This document shows positions 29,387 to 54,640 of a stretch of 64,000 bases of DNA, one piece after another. This DNA comes from Nitrospira sp. (GTDB lineage: Bacteria > Nitrospirota > Nitrospiria > Nitrospirales > Nitrospiraceae): contig SWDM01000002.1 of assembly GCA_005116835.1 (NCBI GenBank), forward strand, positions 1-64,000, in the 5' to 3' direction. The notes below the pieces were generated by a model that saw only the letters and a program-made list of their open reading frames with translations, was not told where the DNA came from and searched no databases. How positions within the stretch are numbered: position 1 is the first letter of the stretch; the number at the start of each line of letters is the position of its first letter. A program made the position numbers and the translations under genes.

Positions 29387-30259
29387 TCAGCGGCCCAAAG
29401 CCAGCTTCACCGTGGCGCCGAGTTCGGCTGGATTGCTGCAGACACGTACCCCGGCTGCTTCGAGCGCCTTCATCTTCTCTGTCGCAGTGCCTTTACCGCC
29501 AGAAATGATGGCCCCGGCATGGCCCATGCGCCGTCCTGGGGGAGCCGTGATGCCGGCGATGAAACTGACGACCGGCTTCTTCACATTCTTCTTGATAAAC
29601 TCAGCAGCTTTTTCCTCCGCATCGCCGCCGATCTCACCAATCATCACAATGGCCTGAGTCTCGGGATCTTTCTCGAACAAAGCCAGTATATCGACAAACC
29701 CTGTCCCATTGACCGGATCTCCGCCGATCCCGACGCAGGTTGTTTCACCTAGCCCAAGCGTCGAGAGTTGATGCACCGCTTCGTAGGTGAGGGTCCCGCT
29801 ACGAGACACGACGCCTACCACACCCTTCTTATGGATAAAGCCAGGCATGATCCCGATCTTCGCCTCATCGACGGTGATAACACCGGGACAGTTCGGTCCG
29901 ATCAAGCGAACATCCTTGCCACGCAGCGCGCGCTTGACCTTTACCATGTCGTTCACCGGAATGCCTTCGGTAATGCAGATGATCAGCTTCACTCCGGCCT
30001 CAGCTGCTTCCAAAATCGCATCGGCGCAAAACGGCGGAGGCACAAAGATCAGCGAGGTGTCGCACTGGGCTTTCTTGACTGCATCCCGCACAGTGTTGAA
30101 GACCGGAATACCCTCGACCTCTTGCCCCGCCTTGCCAGGCGTGACGCCGGCCACAACCTGCGTCCCATAAGCCTTGCACTGGGTCGCATGGAACGAACCT
30201 TCCTTACCAGTAATCCCCTGCACCACCACCCGCGTATGCTTGTTAACGAGAATGCTCAC
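29387..30259 (-). CDS. sucD: succinyl-CoA synthetase alpha subunit
   Basis: The 290-residue subunit has the CoA-binding N-terminal domain ([17 protein letters not shown]) and the phospho-His site in [13 protein letters not shown]. With SucC it interconverts succinate, CoA and ATP with succinyl-CoA. In the reductive TCA direction it feeds succinyl-CoA to 2-oxoglutarate synthesis. It is the last gene of the leftward rTCA block, separated from sucC by a GC-rich palindromic element. Confidence 0.96.
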
Positions 30260-30313
30260 GATACCCTCTTTTCTTTCTTATTCCATCTTCCCCATGACTG
30301 GAAAGCGATCTTT

Positions 30314-30409
30314 GGGAGGTGCGGGGTTAAGTCCCCACTGCGCGCGTCCAACGAGGGCCTTCTGAGGCCGCGCGTTGCGCGAGCACAGGGACTTGGCCCC
30401 GCACCTCCC
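30314..30409. repeat. palindromic element, family B core with GC-rich arms
   Basis: Arms GGGAGGTGCGGGG...AAGTCCC (30314-30335) and the complement (30388-30409) match at 20 of 22 positions. They enclose a 52-bp core, ACTGCGCGCGTCCAACGAGG ... GCGCGAGCACA, that also occurs at 54498-54551 between unrelated arms. The core has its own hairpin GGCCT-TCTG-AGGCC. It sits between sucC and sucD. Confidence 0.85.
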
Positions 30410-30416
30410 TCATCTC

Positions 30417-31595
30417 CTACGCCGCTTTGCCTGTCAGCTTCACAATTTTTTGCGCCGCCTCCCACAAATCATTCGCCACTTCCAATTTCAATCCTGACTC
30501 CGCCAACAGTTTGCGGCCTTCGTCTGCATTGGTGCCCTGTAATCGGACGACCAACGGCACATTGATCTTCACTTCTTTCGCCGCCTCGATGACACCATGG
30601 GCAATCCGCTCGCAACGAACGATCCCGCCGAAAATGTTGATGAAGATGCCCTTGACGTTCGGATCTTTCAGTAGAATCCTAAAGCCGGCCGCCACCGTTT
30701 CCTTTGTCGCGCCGCCTCCGACGTCCAGGAAGTTCGCCGGTTCGCTGCCCGCCAGCTTGATGACATCCATCGTCGCCATGGCGAGGCCGGCTCCGTTCAC
30801 CATGCAACCGATGTTGCCGTCCAGCTTGATGTAGTTCAGATTATTTTCCCCCGCTTCGATCTCGAGCGGATCTTCTTCATTAAGATCGCGCATCTGCTGC
30901 ACATCGGCATGCCTGAATAGGGCGTTATCGTCGAAGGAAACCTTCCCGTCCAACGCGATCAATTTCTTATCGCTGGTAACGACCAATGGATTGATCTCCA
31001 CCATCGCCGCATTCTTCTCCATAAACAGACGATAGAGGTTCCCGAGCATTTGGATGAAGGGATTGACGACGGCCGGCTCTATAGCAGGAAGTCCAAGCGC
31101 GAAGGCGATGTTTCTCCCGTTGTACGATTGAAACCCGACTGCCGGATCAATCGCCTCCCGGATAATCTTTTCCGGGGTATTGGCAGCCACAATTTCGATC
31201 TCCATCCCACCTTCGGTGCTGGCGATAAATACGGGCCACCCGCTGTCACGATCGACGAGGAGGCTCACATATAATTCCTTGGCAATCGCAGCCCCTTCTT
31301 CGACCAGCAAGCGTCGTACTTCCCGCCCCTTAGGGCCGGTTTGGTGAGTGACGAGGGTCTTGCCGATCAATTCCTTGACTAGGCCTGGCACAGCTGCCTT
31401 GTCCTTCGTAATCTTGACGCCACCGGCTTTGCCTCGGCCTCCTGCGTGGATCTGCGCCTTGACGACGAATACCGGGGTATTCAGCTCTGCGGCCCATGCA
31501 GCTCCTGCCTCTGGCGAGGTGATCTCTCTCCCGCGCGGAACCGGAACCCCGAACTGCCCGAATAACTGCTTCGCCTGAAACTCATGAACGTTCAT
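30417..31595 (-). CDS. sucC: succinyl-CoA synthetase beta subunit
   Basis: The 392-residue ATP-grasp subunit starts MNVHEFQAKQLFGQFGVPVP and ends with the CoA-ligase domain (GIFINIFGGIVRCERIAHGV). The nucleotide-binding loop AQIHAGGRGKAGGVK is visible. It partners with SucD encoded 157 bases downstream. Within the rTCA block it acts after fumarate reductase. Low-complexity or palindromic hairpins flank it on both sides. Confidence 0.96.
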   Translation of the reverse strand: MNVHEFQAKQLFGQFGVPVPRGREITSPEAGAAWAAELNTPVFVVKAQIHAGGRGKAGGVKITKDKAAVPGLVKELIGKTLVTHQTGPKGREVRRLLVEEGAAIAKELYVSLLVDRDSGWPVFIASTEGGMEIEIVAANTPEKIIREAIDPAVGFQSYNGRNIAFALGLPAIEPAVVNPFIQMLGNLYRLFMEKNAAMVEINPLVVTSDKKLIALDGKVSFDDNALFRHADVQQMRDLNEEDPLEIEAGENNLNYIKLDGNIGCMVNGAGLAMATMDVIKLAGSEPANFLDVGGGATKETVAAGFRILLKDPNVKGIFINIFGGIVRCERIAHGVIEAAKEVKINVPLVVRLQGTNADEGRKLLAESGLKLEVANDLWEAAQKIVKLTGKAA

Positions 31596-54092: not shown

Positions 54093-54640
54093 TACAGGGC
54101 AAGAATGTCCCGTTTCTTATCCAAGAAACGGGACCGGTCTATGAACGACTGGTCCTGTATCCACACACATGAGGAAGGGTACGGCGGCGAGCGACTTGCA
54201 CCGGAGTGTCGGGGCTTATCCTGTACCTGCGCGAGTCCAACAGACAATGGTCTCTCCACGCTTGCTTGTTTTTCCCCAATAGGTGGCTTGGTTGATCCTC
54301 TAATGCGCGCGCTTTTCCACCCGCCCACCTCGGGCGCGTCGAGACGCGCCCTTTACCCGTGGCGAGGCCCTTCACACTTTTACAGTTTTCCGTGGAGGGA
54401 GTGGCCGAGGCTGCCCTTTACTGCGCGCATCGAACGATATACAGCCTCCCTCCAAGCTTGCTCGTTCTCTCTCTAGGGATGGCGGCTGATTGATCTTCCA
54501 CTGCGCGCGTCCAACGAGGGCCTTCTGAGGCCGCGCGTTGCGCGAGCACAAAAGATCATCAGCCTCCATCCCCTCCTCTGTTCTGCGAGCAAGAAGGGCA
54601 CCTGGCCACTCCCTCTCATCCTTCCGTTTCAGAGCGCCGT
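54093..54640. repeat. nested palindromic region with several family B cores
   Basis: This gene-free stretch holds a perfect 12-bp hairpin GTCCCGTTTCTT-ATCC-AAGAAACGGGAC (54107-54134) and a perfect 9-bp hairpin GGGCGCGTC-GA-GACGCGCCC (54332-54351). Four core-like starts follow the same theme, near 54226, 54302, 54420 and 54499 (CTGCGCG...). Arms GAGGGAGTGGCC (54395) and GGCCACTCCCTC (54604) enclose a complete smaller element at 54475-54573, like one palindrome inserted into another. Confidence 0.75.
54475..54573. repeat. palindromic element, family B core with AT-richer arms
   Basis: Arms GGGATGGCGGCTGATTGATC and GATCATCAGCCTCCATCCC enclose the same core (ACTGCGCGCGTCCAACGAGG ... GCGCGAGCACA) found at 30336-30387, where the arms are unrelated. 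Confidence 0.85.

Follow-up and report, generated by a model that had tools for sequence, protein, structure and literature searches.

Positions 30314 to 30409 of the window, the 64,000-nt stretch of Nitrospira sp. contig SWDM01000002.1 analyzed here, raise the question of how one conserved core can lie between inverted arms that differ from site to site and yet pair with each other. The core had been reported from the letters alone to be identical or nearly so at two sites, and this was borne out, as positions 30336-30387 and 54499-54550 are 100% identical over 52 nt. The proposed boundaries of the first element (30314-30409) were kept, whereas the second core, previously given as 54498-54551, was shortened and a core stem was delimited within the first (Table 1). 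The left arm of the first copy, GGGAGGTGCGGGGTTAAGTCCC, pairs with the right arm, GGGACTTGGCCCCGCACCTCCC, over 22 positions, and the RNA fold of 30311-30412 has a free energy of -75.4 kcal/mol and a z score of -9.8 relative to shuffled sequences. The second copy, with arms at 54476-54498 and 54550-54572, also forms a long hairpin (z score of -4.9 relative to shuffles), and both copies were matched by the structural covariance model R1. The first element sits inside the sucC-sucD pair, 7 nt from the sucC stop codon (30417-30419); the name sucC derives from the sequence and the sucC-sucD gene order.

Table 1. Coordinates of the two hairpin elements and of neighboring features in the window
Feature	Position	Strand	Basis
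sucD, next downstream gene, same direction as sucC	29387..30259	-	ORF list; best match in 59 of 61 relatives
Complete hairpin element, type A core	30314..30409	+ (antisense to sucC/sucD)	R1 match 30312-30411, 108 bits
Left arm	30314..30335	+	Pairs with 30388-30409 in fold
Conserved structured core stem	30339..30385	+	Fold; invariant alignment columns; paired changes
Right arm	30388..30409	+	Fold
sucC (succinyl-CoA synthetase beta)	30417..31595	-	ORF list; orthologue comparison
Left half of interrupted type-B element	54394..54437	+	Arm score 17 with right half; uninterrupted in L193
Linker (TATACAGCCTCCCTCCAAGCTTGCTCGTTCTCTCTCTA), recurs before other copies	54438..54475	+	Flank comparison of copies
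Second element, type A core, commonest arm family	54476..54572	+	R1 match 54474-54574, 96 bits
Right linker CTCCTCT	54573..54579	+	
Right half of interrupted type-B element	54580..54615	+	Uninterrupted element in L193; arm pairing

Architecture of the hairpin and diversity of its arms

The layout of the element was taken from an alignment of 43 diverse copies. The outermost part is an arm stem of ~22 bp whose sequence is free. Inwards of it follow TGC/GCA, a G.A mismatch that hardly varies, a stem of 4 bp, a TC bulge with an invariant T and a nearly invariant C, a further stem of 5 bp, and, at the apex, a variable hairpin. In the core at 30339-30385 the two inner stems are CGCG/CGCG and CAACG/CGTTG, and the apical hairpin is GGCCT/AGGCC. 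In the alignment 85% of the cells were paired, and 325 cells had changed on both sides, compared to 120 in shuffles and 87 to 184 in slid structures. The core pairs changed almost only in concert, and covariation was present at 22 of 22 arm pairs; for the arms this test is biased, because the 43 elements had been chosen for good arm pairing, whereas for the core it is not. Without such selection, at least 14 arm pairs were present in 220 of the 237 distinct copies collected over all loci. The core is constrained, and the arms vary freely provided that they pair.

Across the genus the arm sequences fall into 88 clusters at <80% identity, so that the earlier claim of different but pairing arms holds well beyond the window. 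The arms are not always unique, as one left arm is common to 17 of 45 copies and one right arm to 19 of 45. Within this set, the copy at 30336 has a rarer arm and the copy at 54499 belongs to the commonest arm family. The arms pair over a median of 21 bp, but in at least 4 of the 45 copies they pair poorly or not at all. The sequence-only reading had proposed to test whether the flanks are always inverted and always different, and had named uninverted flanks or many copies with the same arms as grounds for giving it up; both occur, since many copies share arms and some arms are unpaired. Comparison of the flanks of all copies showed that several are chimeras of two arm families. Folding each left arm with the right arm of a different copy was of little use as a control, since the same arms recur in so many copies.

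Another hairpin (GGCACGCCGAGACGTGCC-like, CCCGCCCACCCACTGGCACG...) also recurs alongside these elements, at 54314-54370 of the window and at loci L302, L304, L318, and L157. In at least four loci it interrupts a type-A core on its 5′ side, so that the arms are 94 to 95 nt apart.

Copy number and position relative to genes

The host genome comprises 3.94 Mb in 24 contigs. A 74-nt query composed of the 52-bp core and the right arm gave 44 BLAST matches there (E ≤ 0.001), and the covariance model identified 125 places at the same threshold, corresponding to ~120 copies of the ~96-bp hairpin repeat. Only 8 of the 125 matches overlap a predicted ORF by at least 30 nt, and the family thus shares with REP sequences the property of being a multi-copy extragenic palindrome. 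Copies were present in all 32 genomes of the genus Nitrospira that were searched, with 8 to more than 67 per genome, the upper figure being a lower bound; N. defluvii has only ~14. Five of five other genera of the same family contained 2 to 30 copies, whereas only 2 of 24 genomes from other families had any. Where contigs with the core carry a taxonomic name, it is Nitrospira, Nitrospiraceae, or Nitrospirae/Nitrospirota, and N. defluvii and N. lenta are among them. Three-element clusters were seen in the host genome at C19:199387-199794, C3:62751-64091, C6:151298-151693, and C10:209067-209403, where a recurring linker, CTCCCTCCAAGCTCGCTCGTTATCTCTTCA, separates the elements in places.

The elements are placed asymmetrically with respect to genes, which were predicted with a simple codon-usage caller. 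For 105 host genome elements, the stop codon of the right-hand gene lies within 25 nt in 29 cases and that of the left-hand gene in none, and the right-hand genes with a nearby stop codon run antisense to the core strand. Both flanking genes are antisense to the core strand in 45 of the 105 cases and both in sense in 17. For 84 elements of other Nitrospira genomes, the corresponding figures are 41 versus 1 for stop codons within 25 nt and 51 versus 11 for both-antisense versus both-sense neighbors. Copies typically sit directly behind stop codons in a single orientation, and this location downstream of coding regions is also one of the marks of REP sequences. Pfam domains were found in 17 of 18 preceding proteins tested, such as GatB, ArgJ, and SAICAR synthetase. 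In gene sense the order is stop codon, arm, TTGCTCG...GCGCAGT, arm, and as the placement and orientation are so regular, the hairpin becomes part of the 3′ UTR of a read-through mRNA. At five host genome loci behind stop codons (C11:151833, C16:355393, C16:275357, C17:246219, and C15:135065), the elements are embedded in a different repeat, which is marked by the motif (C)GGATGCTGAAAAAG ... CAGCGGC/CCGCTGCGG.

Core-type switching at orthologous loci and nesting of elements

The gap between sucC and sucD was compared in up to 30 genomes. A hairpin was found at the same position in 21 of them, and all 21 contain the core. The sequence-only reading had proposed to look in relatives for hairpin arms without the core at the same locus; none of these 21 orthologues is an arms-only hairpin, and none of 27 pairs with shared arms lacks the core. 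The relatives L163 and L168 have an apparent deletion remnant of the element, and L189, from another genus, has a 41-bp gap without an element. In some relatives (L163, L165-L168, L187, and L188) a lipoprotein-like ORF lies between sucC and sucD, and L165 and L167 have this ORF as well as the hairpin, the start of sucD being duplicated there.

The sucC-sucD element exists in four alleles (A, A2, B, and C) that are distinguished by their core types and arms and have a scattered distribution on the sucD tree. Intergenic sequences of the same allele are mostly 92 to 98% identical, compared to mostly 80 to 94% for the flanking coding DNA, and L160 and L180 have a nearly identical element with a right flank of only 66% identity. 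On these grounds, the alleles appear to have been exchanged between species in short tracts, with one breakpoint near an arm; alternatively, the shared alleles could stem from horizontal transfer of the entire segment at this locus. At another locus (C19:299307 in the host genome and L117), the arms have diverged through paired changes, and C16:61239 and L088 have similar left arms with different core types. The core type has been replaced by another at orthologous loci.

The second window copy lies within a type-B element whose two halves (Table 1) still pair with each other. In the relative L193 the same type-B element is uninterrupted, its apical hairpin, GCGCGCCCTCGGAAGGGCC, occupying the place of the unit inserted in the window. 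Two further nestings with an uninterrupted element in a relative (C8:493600 versus L109 and C10:24696 versus L065) bring the number of such cases to three. In a strict scan 6 of the 125 copies were nested, compared to 1.2% for re-paired flanks. These cases show that a member of the family can be inserted, complete, into the apical hairpin of another.

Interpretation and comparison with known repeats

We consider it reasonably likely that the family is a REP/BIME-like palindromic repeat of Nitrospira, a two-tier hairpin that acts in 3′ UTRs, has a core read by a protein, and is a mosaic formed without a dedicated transposase. The unit is a hairpin of ~96 bp in which a core of ~47 nt with fixed irregularities (the G.A mismatch, the TC bulge, and the apical hairpin) stands on an arm stem of ~22 bp. 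Copies recombine with one another, giving rise to core-type swaps at a locus, chimeric arms, tandem arrays, and nested elements. Judging from its position, the hairpin may act in the 3′ UTR of the preceding gene by protecting mRNA ends, by processing, or by uncoupling operon genes, and the core may be the recognition site of a putative protein or RNase. The mosaic could result from events at hairpin-stalled replication, either template switching or gene conversion over short tracts, among copies sharing core sequence. The nearly fixed orientation of the core relative to genes counts against this explanation as well, since template switching is known to invert spacers (PMC8604942).

A function as an mRNA hairpin in the 3′ UTR is probable, and one result counts against it. 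Isolated arm mismatches read on the core strand, in the host genome and its relatives, comprise 55 G.T and 12 A.C, with a ratio of 17:4 in stop-adjacent copies and 20:1 in the rest. As the core strand is antisense to the preceding gene, this excess of G.T is on the wrong strand, because selection on the mRNA predicts more G.U than A.C on the mRNA strand. Two explanations offer themselves, activity of the core strand, whether as antisense RNA or as single-stranded DNA, and a strand bias in the correction of mismatches. A more specific version, which we regard as tentative and improbable on balance, describes a genus-wide element coupled to stop codons, with an invariant core read by a dedicated putative factor and a sequence-free stem, which would spread and renew itself by replacing the apical hairpins of existing copies without a RAYT or other known transposase, and whose active strand would be antisense to the preceding gene.

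The preference for G.T on the core strand also agrees with the assumption that the elements are non-autonomous mobile elements, moved in trans as single-stranded hairpins by an HUH/Y1 (TnpA_REP-like) transposase for which the core irregularities would be strand-specific recognition marks and the core strand the active one. The high copy number, the restriction to a single family, the nested insertion, and the strand-specific irregularities fit as well, and TnpA_REP binds folded single-stranded hairpins via such irregularities (PMC8266576). We nevertheless hold this mobilization to be unlikely: the three Y1_Tnp loci of the host genome (L043-L045) contain no elements, Y1_Tnp was not found in the element-rich, near-complete genomes G001, G009, and G018 nor in G035, and the elements have neither a GTAG/CGTC tag nor a target-site duplication. 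Mobilization by RAYT was rejected because the Y1_Tnp loci are free of elements and several element-rich genomes lack a detectable Y1_Tnp. The complementarity of the arms might instead be maintained mainly by quasipalindrome template switching, in which one arm is copied from the other, and not by selection on pairing. This process homogenizes the arms of inverted repeats in many organisms (PMC8604942), and the elements do have arms that diverge fast and still pair. It also inverts spacers (PMC8604942), and such inversion is nearly absent, as the orientation of the core relative to genes is nearly fixed. As, moreover, many isolated single-base wobble intermediates are present instead of wholesale correction, and the core pairs covary although the core sequence is conserved, we judge template switching to be quite unlikely as the main cause.

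A strong hairpin just behind stop codons would also be expected if the elements were intrinsic transcription terminators whose apical part is conserved in Nitrospira. In gene sense, a run of at least 5 T within 15 nt behind the element was found for none of the 125 elements, and for want of a U-tract they are therefore not intrinsic terminators; the window copy, moreover, lies inside the sucC-sucD pair, and this interpretation is very improbable. The two mechanisms offered by the sequence-only reading fared no better. Insertion of a bare core into the loop of ready-made hairpins would be in line with the insertion of elements into apical hairpins of other elements, but whole elements are inserted, and arms-only hairpins were absent both from the sucC-sucD orthologues and from the shared-arm pairs, so that we find it scarcely credible. 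Regeneration of the arms at each site is unneeded, as orthologous loci have related arms that diverge with paired changes.

The REP/BIME-like interpretation has consequences for a group of key nitrite oxidizers with little genetics. With ~120 copies behind the stop codons of ordinary genes, among them sucC and genes with GatB, ArgJ, and SAICAR-synthetase domains, the repeat is likely to shape gene expression and genome rearrangement. The covarying arms, switched cores, and nested insertions constitute a natural data set on the spread and pairing of REP-like repeats without a linked RAYT.

Integron attC sites are folded single-strand sites with structural recognition marks, in which the outer core sites are conserved and the center is variable. 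The Nitrospira elements resemble them as folded sites with structural marks and variable parts but conserve the center and vary the outer arms, and an identity with attC was rejected because of this reversal. MITEs with long inverted arms, e.g., NEMIS/Correia, are likewise hairpins dispersed between genes, of ~100 to 150 bp and cotranscribed with them. The termini of MITEs are conserved and flanked by target duplications, whereas those of the Nitrospira elements are their most variable part. Target-site duplications were scored for 31% of the elements, compared to 28% ± 3% in re-paired flanks, and the MITE reading was rejected for the variable ends and the lack of target duplication.

The closest resemblance is to REP/BIME, repeats tagged with GTAG and CGTC, which are also extragenic imperfect palindromes of high copy number, mostly downstream of genes and arranged in mosaic arrays (PMC3733652, PMC8266576). 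Conserved stem irregularities, lineage restriction, and alternative complementary stem residues between subfamilies are further common features. Unlike REP sequences of 20 to 50 nt, the Nitrospira element has ~96 bp, conserves its apical core while the arms are free, keeps one orientation behind stop codons, and nests in the apical hairpin of other copies. GTAG was present at the foot of the host genome elements in 1 of 125 cases on the left and 9 of 125 on the right, CGTC in 1 of 125, and none of the RAYT (Y1_Tnp) genes at L043-L045 is flanked by elements. Lacking the tags, the length, and a linked RAYT, the family is therefore termed REP-like and not filed as REP. The window had no Rfam match above the gathering score, and a scan of locus L160 at a weak threshold gave no credible match. 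The literature search for palindromic repeats in Nitrospira yielded a general REP survey alone, whose accessible part counts putative REPs in N. moscoviensis and does not name this hairpin family (PMC12306157). The dispersed hairpin repeat, for which Rfam and the literature searched hold no description, is a distinctive, lineage-specific REP/BIME-like family of Nitrospira.
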